Positions 13,226 through 34,777 of a stretch of 43,185 nucleotides of DNA are shown in pieces. The stretch spans positions 1 through 43,185 of the forward strand of contig CACPAS010000009.1 of assembly GCA_902632055.1 (NCBI GenBank). The letters run 5' to 3'. The first letter of the stretch is position 1, and every line of letters starts with the position of its first letter. A program made the position numbers and the translations under genes. Origin of the DNA: an uncultured OCS116 cluster bacterium (lineage in GTDB: Bacteria; Pseudomonadota; Alphaproteobacteria; Rhizobiales; TMED25). The notes under the pieces are model-generated. The model worked only from the letters and a program-made list of their open reading frames with translations, was not told the origin of the DNA and did not search any database.

Positions 13226-13819
13226 TTATAATTTATCAGTTGTATCTTCTGTTGACTGAAGTGTTTTATTTTCTTTTTGTGCTTCTCGTTCAACTCTTTT
13301 GGCAGCTCTTAAAACTAATTTATCAAGTTCTATCTGGGTACACAGTCCAAGTACAACCGGGTCCTGAGGTTGTATATTCCCGATATTCCAATGGGTCCTA
13401 TTTCTGATAGACTCTATTGTTGATTTTGTCGTGCCCACAAGTCGAATTACTTCACTGTCTTTCAACTCAGGATGATTTCTTACGAGCCATGCAATTGCAG
13501 CGGGTCTATCTTGTCTCCTCGATAAGGGTGTATATTTTTTTTGTTTTTTTGTTGTAATTTCAGGTAGTTCAACAATTGTTTGGTTTAGCTTGAGTGCATG
13601 TTCACTATTATGTTCTGCAGCCTCAAGTTCTATTCTTGTGAGCTCACCAGACATTATTGGGTCCATTCCTCTTATCCCTTGAGCAACGTCCCCATCTGCA
13701 ATCCCTTTCACTTCGAGTGGGTGTAAGCTACAAAATTCAGCTATCTGATCAAATGTTAAAGCTGTATTTTCAACGAGCCAAACAGCTGTTGCTTTCGGCA
13801 TTAGAGGTGTTTGTGCCAT
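13226..13819 (-). CDS. DUF1013/TrcR family cell-cycle transcriptional regulator
   Basis: This 197-residue protein matches the alphaproteobacterial DUF1013 family (PF06242), also named TrcR after a proposed cell-cycle transcriptional regulator. Characteristic stretches are PLMPKATAVWLVENTALTFDQIAEFC at the N-terminus, then HPLEVKGIADGD and RGMDPIMSGELTRIE, and a second helix-turn-helix-like half around residues 100-140 (RPAAIAWLVRNHPELKDSEVIRLVGTTKSTIESI). The two similar WLV...F/L...L segments look like duplicated DNA-binding helices. The C-terminus is charged and probably helical. Restriction of this family to Alphaproteobacteria supports the taxonomic placement of the window. Confidence 0.88.
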   Translation of the reverse strand: MAQTPLMPKATAVWLVENTALTFDQIAEFCSLHPLEVKGIADGDVAQGIRGMDPIMSGELTRIELEAAEHNSEHALKLNQTIVELPEITTKKQKKYTPLSRRQDRPAAIAWLVRNHPELKDSEVIRLVGTTKSTIESIRNRTHWNIGNIQPQDPVVLGLCTQIELDKLVLRAAKRVEREAQKENKTLQSTEDTTDKL

Positions 13820-13897: not shown

Positions 13898-14875
13898 TTA
13901 TTCTCTGGTAAGGATAATCTTACCAAAATGCTTACCACTTTTCATCAGATCATGCGCTTGATCTGCCTCCTCAAGGTGAAAACTCTTATAAATAATTGGT
14001 TTTATTTTGCCAGCCCCTATTAATGGTAGGATTTTTGATTCTATATCATTTGCTATCGCGGCTTTATACTCTAAATTTTTTGGACGGAGCACAGACCCTG
14101 TGTGAGTCAAACTTTTCCTCATGATATGGGAAAGATCAATTTTACAAAGACTCCCTTTCAGATATGCAATCTGAATAATACGAGCGTTCATTGCTGATAA
14201 AGCATAATTTTTGTTTGTGTAATCTCCGCCAACGATATCTAAGATTACATCTATTTCATTATATTTTGATTTCTTAATTTCTTCATAAAAGTCTTGGTTA
14301 CTATAATTTACTACAAGATCCGCTCCAATTTTGTAGCATCTATTGAGTTTATCTCTATTGCTGGTAGTGGTGATAACATTAGCACCAAATTCCTTTGACA
14401 TTTGAATTGCTGTTGTTCCGATCCCACTTGAACCGCCATGAATGAGAATATTCTCATTTGACTTCAGCTTACCAATCCGAAATATATTATTCCATACTGT
14501 AAAATAAGTTTCAGGTATTGCCGCTGCCTCCCTAAATGATAGATTTTCTGGCATCGGCAAGGTAAGTTCTTGATTTGCCAAGCAATACTCGGCATATCCG
14601 CCGCCTCCAAGAAGTGCGATTACTTTATCACCTATTTTAAATTTTTTAACTTTTGATCCGACTTCACGTACAGTGCCGGAAACCTCCAATCCAGGGTGAT
14701 CTGGAGATCCATCAGGAGGTGGGTGAAGACCATATCTTTGTAATATATCAGGTCTGTTGACGCCGCTTGCTTGTACGTCAATCAATACCTCTCCCTCTTT
14801 GGGACTCGGAATAGTTTTTTTGGCTAGAATAAGTTGACTATTCTTACCGTGATCGACTATGTCTATTACTTTCAT
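13898..14875 (-). CDS. NADPH:quinone oxidoreductase-like zinc-independent MDR protein
   Basis: This 325-residue protein is a medium-chain dehydrogenase/reductase of the quinone oxidoreductase (QOR/PIG3-like) type. The GroES-like N-terminal half contains SGVNRPDILQRYGLHPPPDGSPDHPGLEVSG (35-65). The NADPH Rossmann motif ILIHGGSSGIGTTAIQMSKEFGANVITTT is near residue 143. The structural zinc-binding cysteines of alcohol dehydrogenases are absent, as expected for QORs. It probably reduces quinones or reactive enones using NADPH in the cytoplasm. It lies 44 nt downstream of rpmE on the same strand. Confidence 0.88.
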   Translation of the reverse strand: MKVIDIVDHGKNSQLILAKKTIPSPKEGEVLIDVQASGVNRPDILQRYGLHPPPDGSPDHPGLEVSGTVREVGSKVKKFKIGDKVIALLGGGGYAEYCLANQELTLPMPENLSFREAAAIPETYFTVWNNIFRIGKLKSNENILIHGGSSGIGTTAIQMSKEFGANVITTTSNRDKLNRCYKIGADLVVNYSNQDFYEEIKKSKYNEIDVILDIVGGDYTNKNYALSAMNARIIQIAYLKGSLCKIDLSHIMRKSLTHTGSVLRPKNLEYKAAIANDIESKILPLIGAGKIKPIIYKSFHLEEADQAHDLMKSGKHFGKIILTRE

Positions 14876-14919
14876 TAGAAGTGTTATCTATGGTGTAAGT
14901 TAAATGAGTAATTACAAAA

Positions 14920-15144
14920 TTATTTGCTAACAAGACCTTCAAATTTTTTGTTAAATTTACTAACTCTTCCGCCTCTATCGAGTATTTGTTGAGAGCCCCC
15001 GGTCCATGCAGGATGGCTAGTTGGATCGATATCTAGAGTTAGACTGTCACCCTCTGAACCATATGTCGAATATGTTTCATATTTAGTTCCGTCAGTCATA
15101 ACAACTTGTATTTTATGATAATCTGGATGACCTTGTTTTTTCAT
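14920..15144 (-). CDS. rpmE: 50S ribosomal protein L31, cysteine-free type
   Basis: This 74-residue protein matches alphaproteobacterial L31: [19 protein letters not shown], then [17 protein letters not shown] and [14 protein letters not shown]31 sits at the central protuberance of the large subunit. The zinc-ligand cysteines of the C-plus form are missing, so together with the cysteine-free L36 in this window the ribosome should need no zinc at these two positions. A GAGA-type purine stretch precedes the ATG. It is the gene following the MotA/MotB-like pair. Confidence 0.94.
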
Positions 15145-15215
15145 TTTAATATCTCATATATTTGTCTTCTGTTTATATACAATAATATCCTAAGTACCAC
15201 AAGCCCAAAATTGGT

Positions 15216-16700
15216 CTAGCTTTCAGTGAGTTTTATCTCAATGCGTCTATTTTTCTTGTACGCAATCTCATTATCACCGATTTCTAATGGCATAAACTCG
15301 CCTCTGCCTGTCGCAGCAAGTCTATTTGGCGGAATCCCTGTTTTTATTAGAAAGTCCACAACTGAAATTGCCCTTGAGGCTGATAATTCCCAATTTGACT
15401 CATACCTTGAATTCCTTATTGGGACTTTATCTGTGTGCCCATCAATACGAAGTATCCAATTAATTTCTTCTGGGATTTCATCAATAAGCTCTTGAATTGC
15501 AACTGATAATTTTGCAAGTTGTCTTTGTCCATCTATACCAATATTTGCTTCCCCGCTATCAAAAAGAACCTCGGATTGAAATACGAATCTGTCACCAATG
15601 ATTTTAATATCATCACGGTTACCTATTATTTCTTTAAGCTTTCCAAAAAACTCAGATCTATATTCGGATAATTCTTTTACTCTCTGAGCGAGCGCAACAT
15701 TTAACCTTTTTCCCAAGTCCGCTATTCTTGCCTGTTGATCAATATCTCTTTTTTCGGACTCATCAAGTAGAGCCTGTAATGCTTGCATTTGCTTCTTTAG
15801 CTCTGAAATTTGCATACTTAATATTTGCACTTCATTACCGGATAATTTTGCTTTCTGACCTGTAGATAGTAAAATTGATTTTAATCTTTTAAGTTTTTCG
15901 GTATTTTCAACTTCTTTTTTCCTCAAATCGATAATTATCTGCTCATTGTCTTTTATTAATTTTTCTTGGTCAATTGAGGCCATGTCCATACTTGATATAT
16001 CTGTTTTGAACTGAGACAACAGCTTATCTTGGTTTTTGTTTTTTTCTCTTAAATCAATAATTATTTTTTCTTTATTTTCCAAATCAAAACCTAGTTCATT
16101 GATATTGGTTTGTAGATCTGTTATTTGAATCTCAAAATTTACAATCTTATCTGAATTATTCTTCAGTTGAAGATCTTTTATCTTAAGAAGTGATGCGAGT
16201 TGATTCCTTTCCGATACTAGTTTAATTATTTTTTGACTCCTGAGAGCGGACTCATCTCTTTTTTCGTCAAAGAGTGCAATTTTTTTATCTAATTCGTCCT
16301 GCAGGATAATTATCCTGTCATTATAATCCTCATTAAGTGCAACAACCTCGTCTTGTAAAATTATTACATTTTCTTGGGCTTCCTCGAGTCGGGTGCTTAA
16401 GCTCTCATTTTTTGTGGTAAGATTTGTAACGTCCTGCTCTAAAACTTGTATTCTTGTCACAAATTCTTCATTTTGGGTTTGCTCAAGAGACAATAAAAGA
16501 GATAGCTCGCTGAGTTGATCTTGCAGATCAGATAAGGCATCATCTTTTGATGAGATTTCTGTTGAAAGAAAAAATTGAGATAAAATAAACACTGTTAATA
16601 AGAATATTATGACAAGTAAAATCGTAGCCATTGCATCAACAAATCCAGGCCAATAATTCGCTGTACTACTGTTATTTGATCTTCTTGTGTTTCTGGGCAT
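15216..16700 (-). CDS. MotB/OmpA-like cell-wall-binding protein with long coiled coil
   Basis: This 494-residue envelope protein begins with a short polar cytoplasmic tail and one transmembrane helix (WPGFVDAMATILLVIIFLL, residues 17-35) that carries D22, in the position of the proton-carrying aspartate of MotB/ExbD-type subunits. Residues ~50-360 are almost entirely heptad-like, charged coiled coil. The C-terminal ~110 residues are an OmpA-like peptidoglycan-binding domain: LRIDGHTDKVPI, then YESNWELSASRAISVV, then GIPPNRLAATGRGEF. The design equals a stator B-subunit with a very long periplasmic stalk. The MotA-like partner gene is 33 nt upstream, and no flagellar genes are present in the window. 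Similar proteins are known as conserved alphaproteobacterial 'peptidoglycan-binding' proteins near efp; their role is not established. Confidence 0.85.
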   Translation of the reverse strand: MPRNTRRSNNSSTANYWPGFVDAMATILLVIIFLLTVFILSQFFLSTEISSKDDALSDLQDQLSELSLLLSLEQTQNEEFVTRIQVLEQDVTNLTTKNESLSTRLEEAQENVIILQDEVVALNEDYNDRIIILQDELDKKIALFDEKRDESALRSQKIIKLVSERNQLASLLKIKDLQLKNNSDKIVNFEIQITDLQTNINELGFDLENKEKIIIDLREKNKNQDKLLSQFKTDISSMDMASIDQEKLIKDNEQIIIDLRKKEVENTEKLKRLKSILLSTGQKAKLSGNEVQILSMQISELKKQMQALQALLDESEKRDIDQQARIADLGKRLNVALAQRVKELSEYRSEFFGKLKEIIGNRDDIKIIGDRFVFQSEVLFDSGEANIGIDGQRQLAKLSVAIQELIDEIPEEINWILRIDGHTDKVPIRNSRYESNWELSASRAISVVDFLIKTGIPPNRLAATGRGEFMPLEIGDNEIAYKKNRRIEIKLTES

Positions 16701-16733
16701 GGGTAATACGGTTTTTTTTGGTTAGAAAAATTG

Positions 16734-17681
16734 CTACTTCTTTTTAACTTCGTCGATTATTTTTTTCTGCAACTTATTCTGTTCATTCAGTAGCTTACTT
16801 ATCTCTTTATTTTGATTTTCAATCGTATTTAACACAGCCTTAAATCCACCATTCTTACCACTATTTTCATTATTTAATGTCTTTTCTAATTCAACAAGGA
16901 TTGAGTTCATATCTTTTAAATTTCTATTGAGATAGAAGTTCATTTTAGTGTCAGATCTATCATCATTAATCTCAGTAACAGTAGAAAGCCATTCTTCGAG
17001 CTCATTATAAAATCTATTTTGGGCTTGATTGTATATAAGATCAAAGAAGCCTAGAATTAGAGATCCTGAAAGTCCAAATAATGAAGATGAGAACGCAACA
17101 CCCATTCCTGATAATGGCTTTTCAAGACCTAATTTTAATTCTTCAAACATTACCGAAGCTTCACCAGATCCAATTTTAAGCGTCCCGATTGTTTGTCCAA
17201 TTGAGTCAACGGTGAGCAATAGGCCCCAAAATGTTCCAAGTAAACCAAGAAAAATCAATAATCCAATCATATACCTTGAGTATTCTCGGGACTCGTCAAG
17301 TCTGAAAGAGATTGAGTCCAGTATAGATCTCATTGATGTTGCAGAGAGAGTAATTTCATATTTATGATCTAGCATCATAGTCGCCATTGGCGCAAGTAAA
17401 GACGGTGGTGCGCCTATATCTGCATGATGGTCCCCATTTTGAAAATTATTTACCCATCTGACTTCACGGAATAACTTTATTGTTAACCATAGGATATACA
17501 GTATCCCAAAGCCAAGAACAGAGCTTATAATTGTATTAATAATCGGATTCGTTTGAAATGCCCGAACCAAGTCTTCTTGAATAAACAATATGAAGAACGA
17601 AATTAAAAATATGAAGACCAGCATCCTAAATAAATAAACTCTTGGATGCGTGAAGTTTCTAGAAACAGGAATATCAGTCAT
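16734..17681 (-). CDS. MotA/TolQ/ExbB-like proton channel family protein
   Basis: This 315-residue inner-membrane protein has four predicted helices: LFRMLVFIFLISFFILF (residues 18-34), INTIISSVLGFGILYILWLTI (48-68), MIGLLIFLGLLGTFWGLLLTV (~145-165, with the family-typical G-x-L-G-T-x-x-G) and a last GVAFSSSLFGLSGSLILGF (~195-215). Between helices 2 and 3 is a cytoplasmic segment; after helix 4 comes a polar tail ending in a probable coiled coil (IENQNKEISKLLNEQNKLQKK). The topology and GTFWG motif match MotA/ExbB/TolQ proton-channel subunits. With the MotB-like neighbour it should form a proton-driven complex. It is encoded 31 nt downstream of the IMPase homologue in an apparent efp operon. 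Confidence 0.84.
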   Translation of the reverse strand: MTDIPVSRNFTHPRVYLFRMLVFIFLISFFILFIQEDLVRAFQTNPIINTIISSVLGFGILYILWLTIKLFREVRWVNNFQNGDHHADIGAPPSLLAPMATMMLDHKYEITLSATSMRSILDSISFRLDESREYSRYMIGLLIFLGLLGTFWGLLLTVDSIGQTIGTLKIGSGEASVMFEELKLGLEKPLSGMGVAFSSSLFGLSGSLILGFFDLIYNQAQNRFYNELEEWLSTVTEINDDRSDTKMNFYLNRNLKDMNSILVELEKTLNNENSGKNGGFKAVLNTIENQNKEISKLLNEQNKLQKKIIDEVKKK

Positions 17682-17712
17682 TACTACAAATTCCCCTACT
17701 ACTATTCTTGAA

Positions 17713-18498
17713 TTACTGGTTAATCAAATTGTCGTATATTTTTTGGTTGGATACAATAAAATAATTTTTCTGGCGCTCACCTTTTATGCTTGGGGTATTT
17801 ATTTTTCCTCCCGACTCTTCCAGAATAAGGAGGGATGCAATGACAGAATGCCTACTTTCATTATCACCGATAAAGCAGTTTAATGCACCATTGGATACCA
17901 TGCATATTTCGAGTGATATTGATCCCATTTGACGTATTGAATTAACCGAATTCAAATATTTCAAAAGAGTGTCATCTATATCATTAGTATAAAGATTTAG
18001 ACTTTCATCAATTGCCACCATAGCGTTATCTGAATTTTCTTCGTTAGATATCTTCATTCTGATATTATTATGTCTTGCTGAAATTCCTCTTTCACCGATA
18101 AAAACCTCGTCGGAGATTGGATTATACACGATACTGTTTTGTATAATGTTATCTTTGATATGAGCAATTGTGATGCAAAATAAAGGTATCCCACGCTTGA
18201 AATTCATTTCCCCTTCAAGCGCATTAATTATAAAAGAGTTTTTTGGAATAGATGTTGCATCAAAATCATTTTTTGAGTCGTTAGATATAGGAATAAATTC
18301 GTAACCACTTTTTGAATATTTTGACTCGAGTTCGTCAATTATAAATGACTCAACCTTACTTTTGCTTTTTTGAACAAATTCGTTCTTAGAACTTTTAGAA
18401 TTTTGTAGATTCTGGAGTTCGCCAAAATCACGCCGATATATTTTTGCAACATTCCTAACAATTGCATAAAGAACATTTGTGTTTGGTAGATAACTCAT
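17713..18498 (-). CDS. Inositol monophosphatase-fold protein lacking the metal-binding residues (predicted pseudoenzyme)
   Basis: This 261-residue protein aligns by eye along its length with the inositol monophosphatase (SuhB) family but lacks its active site. The family DPxDGTxNF metal motif reads NALEGEMNF (92-100), followed by the conserved continuation RGIPLFCITIAHIKD. The upstream Glu-Glu metal pair is replaced by FIPISNDS. The C-terminal WDxAAG motif reads SRHSVIAS, although the following LLILEESGGKI is family-like. Other family landmarks such as GSISLEICMVSNGALNCFIG are preserved. The reading frame is intact, so this looks like a maintained, catalytically dead protein rather than a decaying gene. 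It begins 4 nt after efp and is followed by the MotA-like gene, so it may have a structural or regulatory role with one of these. Confidence 0.75.
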   Translation of the reverse strand: MSYLPNTNVLYAIVRNVAKIYRRDFGELQNLQNSKSSKNEFVQKSKSKVESFIIDELESKYSKSGYEFIPISNDSKNDFDATSIPKNSFIINALEGEMNFKRGIPLFCITIAHIKDNIIQNSIVYNPISDEVFIGERGISARHNNIRMKISNEENSDNAMVAIDESLNLYTNDIDDTLLKYLNSVNSIRQMGSISLEICMVSNGALNCFIGDNESRHSVIASLLILEESGGKINTPSIKGERQKNYFIVSNQKIYDNLINQ

Positions 18499-18502
18499 GA
18501 AA

Positions 18503-19066
18503 TTAATCAGCCCTTTTTACATAAGTCATGTCATTTGTATCAACTATAACCATATCATCATTATTTATGAAAGGTGGGACCATAACCCGGATATCATTTT
18601 CCAAAATTGCAGGCTTCGAGGATGATGCCGCTGTTTGCCCTTTGATGGAAGGCTCAGTATCCATCACTCTCAGCGAGACTGTTTCCGGCAATATAACACC
18701 TACAGGACTTCCTTCATACAGCTCTACCTCGACCAGCATACCCTCTTTTAAAAATGCCTTCTTTTCATCTAATATGCTCTGACTTAAGGATATTTGTTCA
18801 TAAGTGTCACTGTTCATAAATATCAGCTCTGTATCACTTGAGTACAAATATTGAAAGTTTTCGGTGTCTATTCTTACCTTTTCAACAATCTCATCTGAAC
18901 GAAATCTTTCATTTAATTTTGTATTATCAATTATAGATTTCATCTCTACTTGATTAAACGCACCGCCCTTACCCGGTTTTACGGCTTGTGTTTTGGTGAC
19001 AACAAATAGTGATCCCTTATGCTCTAGCACATTGCCAATCTTAATTTGATTTCCATTTATTTTCAT
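18503..19066 (-). CDS. efp: Translation elongation factor P
   Basis: EF-P (187 residues) relieves ribosome stalling at polyproline motifs. The N-terminal KOW-like domain carries the loop VKPGKGGAFNQVEMKS, with K33 at the site that is post-translationally modified in many bacteria. The two OB-like domains follow, with a conserved C-terminal stretch GDMVIVDTNDMTYVKRAD-like (here DDMVIVDTNDMTYVKRAD). I cannot see the modification enzymes (EpmA/B or EarP) in this window. The start ATG has an AGAGG-type Shine-Dalgarno about 7 nt upstream. It is the first gene of the efp-IMPase-MotA-MotB group. Confidence 0.95.
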   Translation of the reverse strand: MKINGNQIKIGNVLEHKGSLFVVTKTQAVKPGKGGAFNQVEMKSIIDNTKLNERFRSDEIVEKVRIDTENFQYLYSSDTELIFMNSDTYEQISLSQSILDEKKAFLKEGMLVEVELYEGSPVGVILPETVSLRVMDTEPSIKGQTAASSSKPAILENDIRVMVPPFINNDDMVIVDTNDMTYVKRAD

Positions 19067-19125
19067 AATAACCTCTGAGTATTAAAGAGCGTGTTTCCTT
19101 CTAAATTACAACTCTGACTTGGTAT

Positions 19126-20085
19126 TTATTTCATAAACTTGGGCATACGTAAATAGGTAATGCTATACTCATTCATACGCGGTCTAAAATTTTCAAATTT
19201 CTCAGATGCTATTCTCCTATCGTCAGAGGATAATGTACTCATATTCATATCTAATTCAACATCTGTAACGCCAAGTTGCTTTGCCAATAAATAGTATTCG
19301 TACGCCTTGATGTCATTTTTTATCGTTCCAATACCATAATAATACATTATTGCCAGCTGTTGTAATGCTGGTGGGTAAGCTTTCTGTGCTGACCTTTCAA
19401 GCCAAGTAATAGCAATTTTTTCGTCTTTCTTTATTCCTACTTCATTTAGGATCATTATTGCATAATCATACTCGGCTTCAGTATACCCTTGGTCAGCAAA
19501 TTCAAACATCAAAAGTGCCGCATTCTTTTTATCAATTTTAGTTCCAACTCCGTTGATCTTATATTCAATAAGAGAATATCTTGCTAAATCAAGCTCTTCA
19601 CTAGCTTCGCTTATATATTTATACGCTAATGTCTCATTGCGAGACACATTAATTCCATACCTATGATAAATTGAGAGATAGTATTTTGCGTAAGATGATA
19701 AAAAATTTTCATTGCTATTTTTCAATTCATAAAAATAATCATATGATTTATCAAAATCGGTTTTGTAATGAAAAAGTACTTCCGCTAATTCAAACTTTGA
19801 GTTTTGATCACCGTTATTCATTGACGTTTCATACCACTCAATCGCTGAATCGGTATTACCATTACTAATAAATTTTTTTGCCAACCAATATGCCCATTCA
19901 TTATTATCATGGGTTTTATACAATTTTATTGCTTCATCGATTTCATTGTTATTCAGTAATATTTTGAATTTATCATTTGTAAGATCAGCAGATGCTCCAC
20001 TAAAACATAACAGAAAGATCCCTATTATTAGGAGTGTCTTTTTTGAGGAAAATGCTCTATTTATTTTTCTAAATTTTCTGACCAT
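19126..20085 (-). CDS. Secreted or membrane-anchored Sel1-like repeat protein
   Basis: This 319-residue protein has an N-terminal signal sequence: a basic stretch to residue ~16, a hydrophobic core LLIIGIFLLCF, and a likely signal peptidase I site SGASA-D near residue 34. The remainder consists of Sel1/TPR-like helical repeats, for example NTDSAIEWYETSMNNGDQNS, AALLMFEFADQGYTEAEYDY and AITWLERSAQKAYPPALQQL followed by AIMYYYGIGTIKND. Such repeats mediate protein-protein contacts in the periplasm. The start codon lies inside the 3' end of fba (25-bp overlap), with AGAGGTGA directly upstream, suggesting coupled translation. No specific function can be given. Confidence 0.8.
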   Translation of the reverse strand: MVRKFRKINRAFSSKKTLLIIGIFLLCFSGASADLTNDKFKILLNNNEIDEAIKLYKTHDNNEWAYWLAKKFISNGNTDSAIEWYETSMNNGDQNSKFELAEVLFHYKTDFDKSYDYFYELKNSNENFLSSYAKYYLSIYHRYGINVSRNETLAYKYISEASEELDLARYSLIEYKINGVGTKIDKKNAALLMFEFADQGYTEAEYDYAIMILNEVGIKKDEKIAITWLERSAQKAYPPALQQLAIMYYYGIGTIKNDIKAYEYYLLAKQLGVTDVELDMNMSTLSSDDRRIASEKFENFRPRMNEYSITYLRMPKFMK

Positions 20086-21083
20086 TCACCTCTTGTGGCC
20101 AAACTATTCATTTGAGCTCGGTGTCCAAAAGCTTGTTGTGCCTCCAACATATTTTCATCTTTACCGCCCCAAGTCATTAATGCGCTCTGTTGCAGAGCTC
20201 TCCCATAAGAAAAACTTAGTTTTATATCGGTTTCTTTCATCTTATTCATGATTGATAAATGCTTTGTTGCGTCTAGATCATTTTGCCCACCTGAGAGAAA
20301 ACAAACACCTGGAACAGAATCTGGCATATGCTCTCTAAGACATTTGAGTGTTTGCTCAGCTACTTCAAATTCAGTAGCTTGGTTTTCAGCATTGATACCT
20401 GCTATGACCATATTTGGTTTTAGTATAATTCCTTTCAGGTCAACTTTTGCCTCTATTAACTTTGCAAATACAATATCCAATGTTTTTGATGTGACCTCGT
20501 AGCATTTATCAATTGTGTGCTTTGATTTATCGCCATCCATTAGTATTTCAGGCTCAACAATGGGGACTAATCCATTTTCTTGGCATAATGAAGCATATCT
20601 GGCCAGTGCATCGGCATTTGCGTGAATTGCATAGTCTGTTGGTGTTTTATCAGTTATATTAATAACCGCTCTCCATTTGGAGAATGATGCACCTAGTTGT
20701 TTATACTCGTCAAGCCTCTCTCTCAAGCCATCCAAGCCTTCTGTGATAGTTTCTCCTTCAAAGAGTGATAAAGATTTCGCTCCAGTATCAACTTTGATTC
20801 CAATTAATGTATCAGTTGCGACTAACAAATCAGTCAACTTCTCGCCACTTTGACAATCTTGACGGATTGTTTCATCATATAAAATGACTCCGGATATGTA
20901 GCTTTCCATTGCATCTTTAGTTCGAAAGAGCATTTCTCTGTAATTTCTTCGATTCTCAGGTGTTGATTGTAAATTAATTTGACTAAACCTCTTTGTAATA
21001 GTTGCAGTACTCTCGTCCGCTGCAAGGATGCCCTTTCCATCTTCAACCAATTTTTCAGCAATCTGATGTAAATTATTTTTCAT
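20061..21083 (-). CDS. Class I fructose-bisphosphate aldolase
   Basis: This 340-residue Schiff-base aldolase interconverts fructose-1,6-bisphosphate with DHAP and glyceraldehyde-3-phosphate. It is of the glycolytic, eukaryote-like class I type (PF00274), not the zinc-dependent class II enzyme. Signatures are GKGILAADESTATITKR (near residue 17), LVPIVEPEIL (catalytic-region glutamates, ~172-181) and GIILKPNMVIAG with the Schiff-base lysine K222. The C-terminal part includes VCFLSGGQNDLDATKHL. It is the fourth gene in a compact tkt-gap-pgk-fba run (12-nt gap from pgk), which covers triose-phosphate metabolism. Confidence 0.94.
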   Translation of the reverse strand: MKNNLHQIAEKLVEDGKGILAADESTATITKRFSQINLQSTPENRRNYREMLFRTKDAMESYISGVILYDETIRQDCQSGEKLTDLLVATDTLIGIKVDTGAKSLSLFEGETITEGLDGLRERLDEYKQLGASFSKWRAVINITDKTPTDYAIHANADALARYASLCQENGLVPIVEPEILMDGDKSKHTIDKCYEVTSKTLDIVFAKLIEAKVDLKGIILKPNMVIAGINAENQATEFEVAEQTLKCLREHMPDSVPGVCFLSGGQNDLDATKHLSIMNKMKETDIKLSFSYGRALQQSALMTWGGKDENMLEAQQAFGHRAQMNSLATRGEWSENLEK

Positions 21084-30832: not shown

Positions 30833-31570
30833 ATGGATGAGTCGCTAGCCACAACTGACCTTAGTCTTATTGGTCTCTTTTCCGAGGCAGACTTGGTTGT
30901 CAAATTAGTAATGCTCGGGCTCATGATCGCATCAATAATCTCATGGGCAATTATATTTGAGAAATTAATTTTAATTAAATTAGTGAACCGTAATGCAATA
31001 AAATTCTACCGTGATTTTTGGAGCAGCAACATCAATGATATTGATGCCGCATATCGGAATTCAAGAAATAACCCAATGGCTAAAATATTTAATGCAGGCA
31101 TTAAGGAATGGAATACGACCTTCAAAATTCATAAAAATATGTCGATTGATGGTGTTAAGGGAAGAATCGAGAAGGCCATGAATGTTCAGATGAATATTGA
31201 ATTAGATAAACTTGAGAAGAAGTTATTATTTTTAGCATCTGTGGGTTCAACGGCCCCTTTCATTGGTCTATTCGGAACCGTGTATGGTATCATGAATAGT
31301 TTTTCCGCAATTGCAACGTCAAAAAGTACTAATCTCACAGTTGTGGCCCCCGGCATTGCGGAAGCACTCTTCGCAACTGCAATTGGATTATTTGCGGCAA
31401 TACCAGCCGTCATGTTTTACAATAAAATATCAAGCGATATTGCCCGAGTGACATCAAATCTTGAAAATTTCAGTGATGAATTCATTAATTACTTTAGTCG
31501 TCAAATTGACGCTCAAATGGTAGCAGAAGATATTGATGACAATTATCAAATGGATGAGGAAGAGTATTAA
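30833..31570 (+). CDS. tolQ: Tol-Pal system proton channel subunit TolQ
   Basis: This 245-residue inner-membrane protein is the MotA/ExbB-like channel of the Tol-Pal complex, which uses the proton gradient to help outer-membrane constriction at division. Helix 1 is VVKLVMLGLMIASIISWAII (residues ~21-40). A long cytoplasmic segment follows, then helix 2 with LFLASVGSTAPFIGLFGTVYGIM and helix 3 with ALFATAIGLFAAIPAVMFYN; the GTVYGIM motif is typical. It is the first gene of tolQRAB-pal, with tolR 14 nt downstream. The C-terminal tail is short and acidic. Confidence 0.95.
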   Translation: MDESLATTDLSLIGLFSEADLVVKLVMLGLMIASIISWAIIFEKLILIKLVNRNAIKFYRDFWSSNINDIDAAYRNSRNNPMAKIFNAGIKEWNTTFKIHKNMSIDGVKGRIEKAMNVQMNIELDKLEKKLLFLASVGSTAPFIGLFGTVYGIMNSFSAIATSKSTNLTVVAPGIAEALFATAIGLFAAIPAVMFYNKISSDIARVTSNLENFSDEFINYFSRQIDAQMVAEDIDDNYQMDEEEY

Positions 31571-31584
31571 GACCACAATAAATA

Positions 31585-32019
31585 ATGGCTACAAACATCA
31601 AAACATTACCAAACAATAGAAGACGAAGCAGAAAGAACAGTCCAATTTCTGACATTAATGTAACACCTTTAGTAGATGTTATGCTTGTGTTACTGATTGT
31701 TTTCATGGTCACGGCACCATTATTAACCGTTGGCGTCCCAATAGAACTTCCAAAAACGGCGGCTAAGCAAATGACTGATGATAATGAGCCTTTGACCATC
31801 ACCATAGATAAGAATAGTAAAATCTATATTCAAGAATTGGAGATAAATTTTGATGACTTAACTGAGAAACTTGAGGCCATAGGGCAAAGTAATTATGACC
31901 AAAAAATATATATTAATGGGGATAAAGACATCAGTTATGAAGTCTTGATGAGGGTTATGGCGAAAATAAGTTCTTCCGGTTATACATCAATAGGCCTGGT
32001 CACGGATATAGAGTCATAA
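31585..32019 (+). CDS. tolR: Tol-Pal system protein TolR
   Basis: This 144-residue ExbD/TolR-type protein has one N-terminal transmembrane helix, ISDINVTPLVDVMLVLLIVF followed by MVTAPLL (residues ~20-47). It carries the proton-relay aspartate in PLVDVMLV (about residue 32). The periplasmic domain follows (VGVPIELPKTAA ... KIYINGDKDISYEVLMRVMAKI). It works with TolQ to energise TolA. It is encoded 14 nt after tolQ and 1 nt before tolA. Confidence 0.95.
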   Translation: MATNIKTLPNNRRRSRKNSPISDINVTPLVDVMLVLLIVFMVTAPLLTVGVPIELPKTAAKQMTDDNEPLTITIDKNSKIYIQELEINFDDLTEKLEAIGQSNYDQKIYINGDKDISYEVLMRVMAKISSSGYTSIGLVTDIES

Positions 32020-32020
32020 G

Positions 32021-32852
32021 ATGCTATCCAAACCAATATCTATATCAGTTATGCTACATCTATTTTTTGTTGTGATTATAATCACAGGTCTGCCTTCATT
32101 TGAGAGATTTGATGATGCACCAATGTCAATTGTTGAGATTGAGCTAATAAATAATCTTCCAGCAATCACCCAAGAAATTATGGACGAAGATAGTAATCAG
32201 GGCTCTAAATTGGAGAAAAAAAAGTACAGTGCCACGCCCAATGTTAAGCCATCGATGAGGAGCGATGAGTCTAACAATATGAATATTCTTGATAATGAGG
32301 AGCCAATTGAAAAAACTAATAGCTTAGAACAGCAAGACGACGAAAATATTCTGGATTTTTTACCTACACCAGAAATTAAGCCTGAATTGAATAAAATAAA
32401 TGATAAATTATTAACCAATTTAGGTTACGATGAGAATAAAAAGGAAACAAATAAAGTAACGGCACTGCTCGATAAATTTCCGGATGAAAGAGATGTTGGG
32501 GAAATTATCGAAAATATACCAGAAGTGAAAGATTACACAACAGATGCTATTATTACTGCGGGTGAAATATCAAATATGCGAAGCCAAATAGAGATGTGTT
32601 GGAATCCACCCGTGGGGGGTACGAGGGGCTGCAAGCCAGAAAGTACAGGTGATGATTGCACTAAATAAAGATGGTACAATATCAAATGTCGAGCCTGTCA
32701 CAAGAGACACAAATGGACAAAGGGAAGTGGCAATTAATGCTGCTGTGAGAGCTGTTTTAAGCTGTGCTCCATATGAGTTTCCCATTGAAAAATATGAATT
32801 ATGGAGAGAAATAAAGTTTACTTTTGATCCAAGGAATATGTTAGGTGGATGA
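32021..32852 (+). CDS. tolA: TolA-like protein, split by a one-base frameshift
   Basis: TolA links the TolQR motor to the outer membrane. The start has one transmembrane helix ([18 protein letters not shown], residues 5-22). A charged, Asp/Glu/Asn/Lys-rich stalk lies between ~40 and 180, without the long Ala/Lys helix of E. coli TolA. The C-terminal domain begins at [18 protein letters not shown]. The first frame then goes into an unrelated tail that stops at 32666-32668. The proper continuation is in the +1 frame: [17 protein letters not shown] ... [21 protein letters not shown] ... FDPRNMLGG, ending at 32850-32852. Deleting one G from the six-G run at 32614-32619 joins them into about 276 residues. 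The domain-matching cysteines (MCW, LSCAPY) sit one on each side, as in other TolA proteins, which confirms a single gene. Confidence 0.85.
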
Positions 32853-32853
32853 T

Positions 32854-34167
32854 ATGATAAATCAAATGAATAGGCTCATCTTATTATTTTCTTTATTATT
32901 ATTTTTTTCAACTGTTTCACAGGCAGCCTTGGAAATAGATGTCTCAGAGGGGAACTTAAGGCCAATGCCAATTGCAATAACAACGGTTATTGACAAACAA
33001 AATGAGCAGCTAGGTCTCGGCCTTGATATAACAAAGGTTATTGCGAGCGATCTTGCTGGCTCAGGTTTATTCTATCCTATAAATCCAAAAGCATTCCTTG
33101 AGGAAGTTAACTCTGTGGATCGGAATCCAAATTTTAATTCATGGAGAGTAGTAAATGCTGAGGCTTTATTCACTGCAGAGCTTATTTCTGATAATGAAAG
33201 ATTTAGAATAAACTACAAGCTTTGGGACACTTTCAGTGAAAAGTCCCTCGAAGCAAACTATTTAGTTTTTTCAAAGAATAAATGGAGAAACGTAGCACAC
33301 ATGATTGCTGATACCATTTACACCCGCTTAACAGGTGAGAAAGGGTATTTTGACACACAAATTGCCTTTATTGCTGAGAGCGGACCTAAAACTAATAGAA
33401 TGAAAAGATTAGCAATTATGGATCAGGACGGCCAAAATCCTATATTACTGACTTCAGGAAAAGATCTTGTGTTAACACCTAGATTTAGTCCAAATGGTAA
33501 AGAGCTTGTTTATTTGTCATATAGAAATGGTCAGCCGCAAGTATATATTTATGACATTCAATCAAAACAAACCTATGTTGTTGGAACATTTCCAGGCATG
33601 ACATTCGCTCCTAGATTCTCACCTGATGGAACAAAAATCATTATGAGCTTGCAAGAGGGAGTAGGATCAAATTTATTTGAGATGAATTTGAGTAATTTTG
33701 ATAGAAAGAGGTTGACAAATACATCGGATATTAACACAGCTCCAAGCTATTCCCCTGACTCAAGAAATATTGTGTTTGAGTCGGATAAATCAGGCACGCA
33801 GCAGTTATATGTAATGGATGCAGGCGGAGACAATGTGAGAAGGATTAGCTTTGGAACAGGAAGTTACTCCACGCCTGTATGGTCACCTAGAGGTGATTAC
33901 ATTGCTTTCACAAAGATTTCCAAGGGGCGATTTATGATTGGTGTAATGTTCGCAGATGGAAGCGGTGAAAGGATAATTACTGACGGCTTCCACAATGAGG
34001 GACCAACATGGGCCCCAAACGGAAGGGTTTTGATGTTTTTTCGAGAGTCTCCGGGAGAAGATGGCGGTGCCATGATATATTCTGTTGATATTACTGGTTA
34101 CAATGAGAGAAAGATTGAAACACCTGGCTATGCCTCTGACCCATCATGGTCTGCATTAATGAACTAA
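32854..34167 (+). CDS. tolB: Tol-Pal system protein TolB
   Basis: This is a periplasmic beta-propeller of about 437 residues that binds Pal and links it to TolA. An N-terminal signal peptide is visible ([18 protein letters not shown], cleavage after VSQA). The alpha/beta domain follows (to ~165), then repeated propeller blades with the family phrases [51 protein letters not shown] and [17 protein letters not shown] start it at the ATG at 32854, one base after the TolA stop and preceded by TTAGGTGGAT; a GTG three codons upstream (32845) is possible but overlaps tolA. Confidence 0.95.
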
Positions 34168-34264
34168 GTTATCTATTTTTATATTTTTTTTAACATTACA
34201 TCATTTGTTAACATTTACGTGATATCTATTAGTATCATTACTATTTTTAAAGAGGAAATTAACA

Positions 34265-34777
34265 ATGGTATATAAAAAAGCACTCAATCTTTCCGTGACT
34301 TTTTTATTAATTTTCATCCTTACAGGCTGTGCATCAACTCGAAAAAATGTTGAGCAGATCTTATTTGGGGGAGGAAATAATAATGAAGCTGAAATAGTCT
34401 CAAATGCTATTCCTGGATCTTCCCAAGACTTCACAGTAAATGTTGGAGACCGCGTATTTTTTGCAACAAATTCAACAAGTTTAGATGATGACGCAAAAGC
34501 AATACTAGAAAGGCAAGCTTCTTGGTTAGAATTATATCCAGAAATTAGTATCATTGTTGAAGGGCATGCAGATGAAAGGGGTACAAGAGAATACAATATC
34601 GCACTTAGTGCAAAAAGAGCTGATATTGCAGTATCATACCTTGAGAGCCTTGGCATAGCCGGGGATAGGGTTGAAACTGTTCCCTACGGTAAAGAAAGGC
34701 CGGTGGCTGCTTGCTCATCTGAAGCGTGTTGGTCACAAAACAGACGAGCTGTGTCTGTAGTAATCACTGAAGAGTAG
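34265..34777 (+). CDS. pal: Peptidoglycan-associated lipoprotein Pal
   Basis: This is a 170-residue outer-membrane lipoprotein. The signal ends in lipobox LTGC, with the lipidated cysteine near residue 22. After a polar linker, the OmpA-like peptidoglycan-binding domain runs from VGDRVFFATNSTSLDDDA to the end, with the typical IIVEGHADERGTREYNIALS and AKRADIAVSYLESLGI and the DAP-contacting aspartate/arginine positions. A clear AGAGGA Shine-Dalgarno lies before the ATG. It closes the tol-pal cluster; no cpoB/ybgF gene follows. Confidence 0.95.
   Translation: MVYKKALNLSVTFLLIFILTGCASTRKNVEQILFGGGNNNEAEIVSNAIPGSSQDFTVNVGDRVFFATNSTSLDDDAKAILERQASWLELYPEISIIVEGHADERGTREYNIALSAKRADIAVSYLESLGIAGDRVETVPYGKERPVAACSSEACWSQNRRAVSVVITEE

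Follow-up and report, generated by a model that had tools for sequence, protein, structure and literature searches.

The question raised by a 43,185-nucleotide stretch of DNA from an uncultured OCS116 cluster bacterium (contig CACPAS010000009.1; the whole stretch is called the window) is what a MotA/MotB-like pair of proteins does beside efp, the gene of elongation factor P (EF-P). The four-helix member is called A here and its MotB-like partner B. We hold with moderate confidence that A and B form a 5:2 ion-driven, peptidoglycan-anchored motor that serves the envelope at the cell poles or division sites and is neither a flagellar stator nor a phage defence system. The motor architecture is well supported by the genes, domains, invariant residues, co-occurrence, distribution and predicted fold, whereas the 5:2 stoichiometry, the ion and the rotation are what we infer. 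The role at the pole or division site is proposed with less confidence, from overexpression, green fluorescent protein (GFP) fusions and genomic context (20 of 80 named loci have a trcR homologue within the stretch that was fetched).

B is a protein of 494 residues on the minus strand (15216..16700), identified by its open reading frame (ORF), by Pfam and NCBIfam matches and by an AlphaFold2 model. The intramembrane Asp22, the long helix and the OmpA domain of the original prediction were all recovered. Asp22 lies in a WPGFVD motif (codon 16635..16637, minus strand) and, like D424, N436, W437 and R443, does not vary among the 76 aligned B proteins. In the model (predicted local distance difference test, pLDDT, 82; predicted template modelling score, pTM, 0.41) a helix over residues 21-236 is followed by a break at 237-244 and a further helix over 245-359. 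The helical stretch of B is about 310 residues long, and its periplasmic part (residues 46-359) is encoded at 15624..16565. The OmpA-type peptidoglycan-binding domain follows (residues 379-484, 15249..15566; E 1.2e-13), and the invariant Asp424 and Arg443 belong to it. At 1.5 A per residue the two periplasmic helical parts would reach about 29 and 17 nm; because the extended helices would exceed the usual periplasm, a fold-back at 237-244 is possible on this model. A long coil as a fixed trait of such pairs was not supported: it is retained within the window's own family, but the PGxVD-to-GHTD spacing ranges from 245 to 538 across relatives, with 251 the commonest value against 402 in the window (scored in the 68 of 108 frames with both regular expressions, the other 40 being left out).

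A has 315 residues (16734..17681, minus strand; ORF, Pfam match and model) and was expected to be a four-helix MotA/ExbB-like protein. Its MotA_ExbB domain is found at a marginal score (24.5 bits against a cut-off of 22.9), and its model (pLDDT 87) has four long helices (14-33, 46-81, 114-167 and 175-235) followed by a helical C-terminal tail, in agreement with that expectation. None of the 94 aligned A proteins departs from T150, S198 or S200; the codons from Thr150 in transmembrane helix 3 (TM3) to Ser200 in TM4 lie at 17082..17234 on the minus strand, and these residues are expected to ring Asp22 of B. T150 aligns with the Thr in TolQ's GLFGT motif and S200 with the one in its last membrane helix, positions whose functional roles in TolQ we presume. 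The alignments hold 94 of 113 non-redundant A proteins (A4) and 76 of 97 non-redundant B proteins (A5), drawn from 170 A and 165 B proteins over 200 bits with length limits. By its core domain (marginal score), the intramembrane Asp of B and the polar ring of A, A belongs to the MotA/TolQ/ExbB superfamily. A profile of A searched by sequence against the PDB gave coiled-coil matches and ExbB at E 0.67, none of them convincing. A regular expression written for a motif at the C-terminus of A fitted 37 of 94 proteins but clearly passed over similar tails, and no claim is drawn from it.

In the motor that we propose, five A subunits would surround a B dimer in the inner membrane, with T150, S198 and S200 of A forming a ring about Asp22 of B; the passage of ions through this Asp would turn A against B. 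The OmpA domain, at the end of the long helical rod, would fix B to peptidoglycan, and the torque or tension may then act between the membrane and the wall, or be transmitted into the cell via the helical tail of A. The motor would most likely be a housekeeping one in many Alphaproteobacteria, acting on the envelope at the pole or at the site of division.

The pair lies in a compact gene set. The original prediction placed efp (18503..19066; Pfam and NCBIfam matches over cut-off), a gene for an inositol monophosphatase (IMPase)-fold protein (17713..18498), A and B in this order at 15216-19066; all four ORFs were found there, on the minus strand, with matching domains and intergenic gaps of 4, 31 and 33 nt. 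As for co-conservation with efp and the IMPase homologue, a script found, in 80 named loci, B after A in 77, the IMPase gene near in 65 and efp in 55. The whole efp-IMPase-A-B order recurs in 52 of the 80, counted among labelled genes, so that others may intervene, and with some loci cut by contig ends; the order is therefore not due to chance. It may be noted that these 80 loci (of which L083 and L085 are one contig) and a further set of 29 class loci are best hits and not random draws. In all 29 of the latter B adjoins A. As for the three exceptions to A-then-B, locus L067 ends just after A, and in L111 and L139 the stop-to-stop frame of B begins, on our reading, before A. A link to EF-P through polyproline was considered and is not a general explanation, PPP being present in 11 of 94 A proteins (7 at a conserved PPxLLAP site) and 2 of 76 B proteins.

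Both genes are present in 14 of 14 genomes of the window's family, and of 289 genomes of the class, 197 have an A that a profile built from the family's A proteins detects. Split by the flagellar gene flhA, these 289 comprise 126 genomes with both A and flhA, 71 with A but not flhA, 51 with flhA but not A and 41 with neither (Fisher p = 0.195; 17 of the 177 flhA matches are below the family cut-off, and the A and flhA lists are assumed to come from the same 289-genome draw). A is not associated with flhA, and the pair is common in Alphaproteobacteria and independent of flagella, in line with the earlier remark that similar pairs occur in other Alphaproteobacteria. Among 397 genomes drawn from the phylum, matches at E<1e-95 were also seen in seven outside the class. 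In 19 stretches of viral contigs that fit a pattern, none encodes a relative of the pair. We checked A/B adjacency in 12 genomes, most of them small or with a divergent A. The genes are adjacent in 5 of these, and in 6 B lies on another contig than A (genomes G100, G126, G083, G143, G017 and G032, of 0.7-1.5 Mb; loci L303, L304, L305, L306, L308 and L309). The off-contig B matches in these six span both the N-terminal and the OmpA parts of the profile, and the contig of A in G032 is only 3.8 kb; G018 gave weak OmpA hits only. B thus persists where A and B are no longer neighbours.

The role at the pole or division site draws on Komagataeibacter hansenii, the subject of the only functional work on such a pair found in the open-licence literature. 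According to the available part of PMC6570709, this flagellum-less bacterium has neighbouring genes motA (348 residues, four TM) and motB (321 residues, OmpA-type); their overexpression gave longer, chained cells with regions indicative of septa, the motA+ and motB+ strains showed threefold colony spreading and higher cellulose productivity, and GFP fusions of MotA and MotB gave a signal at the cell pole. In the available part of a second paper (PMC6315621), motAB+ cells measure about 3.9 um, compared with 1.8 um, and form a cellulose membrane of lower density. The four-TM A, the OmpA-type B, the neighbouring genes and the lack of a flagellum are points in common with the window pair, whereas the window B is longer and the window A shorter, a comparison made from the published description and not from sequence. 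A published identity of the K. hansenii proteins to Rhizobium and Magnetospirillum proteins is 46% over 98-99%, and in keeping with this we found 48% identity between the Magnetospirillum and Mesorhizobium B proteins. The alignment of flagellar MotB to the window B, by contrast, covers only 76-178 residues in the three proteins compared. The family to which Roseomonas sp. E05 belongs, and which we take to include Komagataeibacter, has A in 71 of 80 genomes. In six relatives from that family, chosen for a short A, B has 310-419 residues counted from the first Met (five at 310-323), and four of the six have efp and the IMPase gene upstream, with about 0.8-1.0 kb between the IMPase gene and A.

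Several points weigh against the motor reading or against its cellular role. The K. hansenii proteins are probable orthologues of A and B, as judged by size, topology, the published identities and the family-wide presence of A. Overexpression does not show what the loss of a gene would do, and foci of GFP are sometimes artefactual; in the same study, as far as its available text goes, the genes left E. coli cell shape unchanged (PMC6570709). With respect to distribution, A was not found in 92 of the 289 class genomes and is hence dispensable in some lineages, and the A match of G070 runs across stop codons, while B there does not fit the TM motif expression. On the structural side, Foldseek with the A model put ZorA first, with TolQ and ExbB among the top matches, yet no match reached E<=0.001. 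The VIA Z of the A model is 11.3 for TolQ, ZorA and ExbB and about 8-9 for MotA; a Z of about 11 falls in the range of unrelated helical bundles. As a designed three-helix bundle reaches Z 9.2, higher than every MotA, the modelled fold alone does not decide the kinship of A.

We therefore consider kinship from a tree of 97 core sequences over 162 columns (midpoint root; bootstrap not fully settled, several long branches). Rows L248 and L252 (duplicates) and L232 (doubtful frame) were left out, and L173 and L174, which have no A-profile hit, were cut by hand from PADLOC coordinates. The family A proteins group with a SiiB-like clade and Zorya III-type ZorA at 97/86. The 24 TolQ/ExbB rows form one group (96/90) that does not include A, and A is also outside the 16-row MotA clade; this placement, with the lack of association with flhA, supports the original view that the pair is an energised complex separate from Tol-Pal and from flagellar MotAB. 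The 12 ZorA3-type rows make a group of their own (100/100), which the divergent family row L177 joins at 95/73 and from which the window A is excluded. As to whether the pair falls inside flagellar MotAB or Zorya, then, A is kin to the ZorA of Zorya III but lies in neither clade. The family A proteins are not recovered as a single clade (3 changes), though one origin remains compatible. Two rows labelled MotA (L256, L263) branch on A's side, away from other MotA rows, and seem to be MotA_ExbB proteins of a further type. TolQ has ion-path residues in common with A, and MotA, TolQ and ExbB have the fold class in common, but MotAB, TolQR and ExbBD are groups separate from A in the tree. TolR and ExbD lack an OmpA domain. 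Non-flagellar B subunits are stated to lack it in the available part of a 2025 stator survey (PMC12505986). In the SiiB-like clade, L246 and L247 (probably also L244) are apparently SiiAB-like, each being a MotAB/ZorAB-like pair of Pseudomonadota within a type I secretion locus with HlyD/RTX genes; the TM core of A is common to all three loci and the WPG[FY]VD motif of B is found in L246 and L247.

The closeness of that clade leads to the first alternative, that the pair energises an export or surface process, as SiiAB does for a type I secreted giant adhesin, with cellulose export as a candidate in K. hansenii. HlyD and RTX genes are present in L246 and L247, the two SiiB-like loci scanned of three, and the raised cellulose productivity and colony spreading of the motA+ and motB+ strains point the same way. 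The window pair is not linked to a secretion locus, however: the nine scanned flanking genes are metabolic, trcR, TauE or Sel1, with no secretion gene among them, and the recurrent partners are efp and the IMPase gene. The authors discuss, in the available part of PMC6570709, that surface effects may follow from cell length, and the motAB+ cellulose membrane was, as noted, less dense. We consider this explanation unlikely. The same is true of a Tol-like stabiliser that would pull on or tension the wall all around the cell, the pole and division site having no particular part in it. It would account for an ion motor with a wall anchor and for a coil which, from the B model, may be long enough to span much of the periplasm, but Tol-Pal genes are present in the same genome and the reported GFP signal is polar rather than uniform.

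A Zorya-like defence role, in which disturbance of the wall by a phage would open a ZorAB-type motor and so activate a cytoplasmic effector, is in our view quite improbable. The tree grouping at 97/86, the Foldseek rank of ZorA and the best PADLOC matches of the pair (ZorA1 at 1.7e-14 for A, ZorB3 at 4.7e-20 for B) speak for it. Yet A scores 51.5 bits, far under the ZorA3 of L234 (1113 bits) and the ZorA1 of L174 (537 bits). L234, the sole PADLOC-confirmed row among the 12 ZorA3-type ones, also has ZorB3 and a DUF2894 ZorF. Zorya III shares with the window pair the A-type core, the OmpA-type B and the place in the tree; the ZorA of L234 has 729 residues with DUF802 and stands beside the DUF2894 gene, and nothing similar is seen at the window, where A has 315 residues. 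On searching for the partner genes ZorC/D, ZorE and ZorF/G, 8 of 8 scanned neighbouring proteins matched no PADLOC family at E<=0.001. A recurrent efp locus and a broad presence that includes some genomes of 0.7-1.5 Mb are unlike an accessory defence gene, and Zorya-type defence is disfavoured by context and distribution. MotA carries a FliG-facing domain between TM2 and TM3. A flagellar stator, or a spare one, is highly improbable: B is laid out like MotB, and outside its own family the nearest matches of its OmpA domain are MotS, MotB and MotD (MotS/MotB at E about 1e-13), but 71 of the 197 genomes with A lack flhA, 51 flhA genomes lack A, A is outside the MotA clade, and between TM2 and TM3 its model has a single short helix (97-104) in place of the FliG-facing domain.

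The pair had also been put forward as undescribed, which could not be sustained, as its probable orthologues have been overexpressed and GFP-tagged in K. hansenii and the window B exceeds an NCBI equivalog cut-off (376 bits on NF006543 against 305; below the cut-off of the four sister models). Every one of the 76 aligned B proteins hits all five models, NF006542 to NF006546, at E<=1e-20. These models stand for PRK09039, "peptidoglycan-binding protein", a name without a mechanism or an A partner, and in the window B the motif and the OmpA domain are about 150 residues further apart than in the commonest spacing. In Caulobacter vibrioides NF006545 is matched only below cut-off, as it is by the window's own B, and the match is thus uninformative on absence there. 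RSP_1880 and RSP_1033, from a Rhodobacter pull-down, could not be tied to B.

With regard to the neighbours, the IMPase-fold protein (E 9.2e-23 in the Pfam scan; Pfam match and motif comparison) has lost its catalytic motifs in the window's family: DPLDGT is lost in 8 of 8 rows (two of them from one genome), NALEG replaces DPLDG and the WD metal site is lost, whereas DP[LI]DGT or a near variant is kept in 57 of 57 rows outside this family. The catalytic and metal roles of these motifs are our assumption. From its sequence the protein of the window's family looks like a pseudoenzyme. A trcR gene (PF06242; transcriptional cell cycle regulator by its Pfam name) lies near the pair at 13226-13819. 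No intrinsic terminator was found in 14600-20300, where promoter-like sites are no commoner than in shuffles. The source genome is 1.03 Mb in 42 contigs and 77% complete, and flhA was not found in this 77%. Two of its proteins have PF01618, A and a putative TolQ. A normal Tol-Pal set elsewhere in the window was confirmed as far as putative tolQ, tolR, tolA, tolB and pal are read as ORFs at 30833-34777 (TolQ also by PF01618), but tolA is broken: its frame (32021-32845) stops at 32668 and the C-terminal domain seems to continue in another frame, either by a real frameshift or by an assembly error.

As to what the pair means, A is present in 197 of 289 alphaproteobacterial genomes and B is kept too in some of only 0.7-1.5 Mb, yet almost no functional study was found. 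The pair joins a ring of ExbB/ZorA type to a wall anchor of MotB type. Since ZorAB has the same mix and was omitted from the tree of the 2025 survey, so far as its available part goes (PMC12505986), the pair's family offers a non-defence comparison for Zorya motors. More tentatively, it is possible, though we would not yet call it probable, that many Alphaproteobacteria have a third core wall motor at poles or division sites, beside Tol-Pal and flagella, which shares ancestry with Zorya III and SiiAB-like motors; the nearest relative of the defence motor would then be a housekeeping wall motor and not a flagellar stator.

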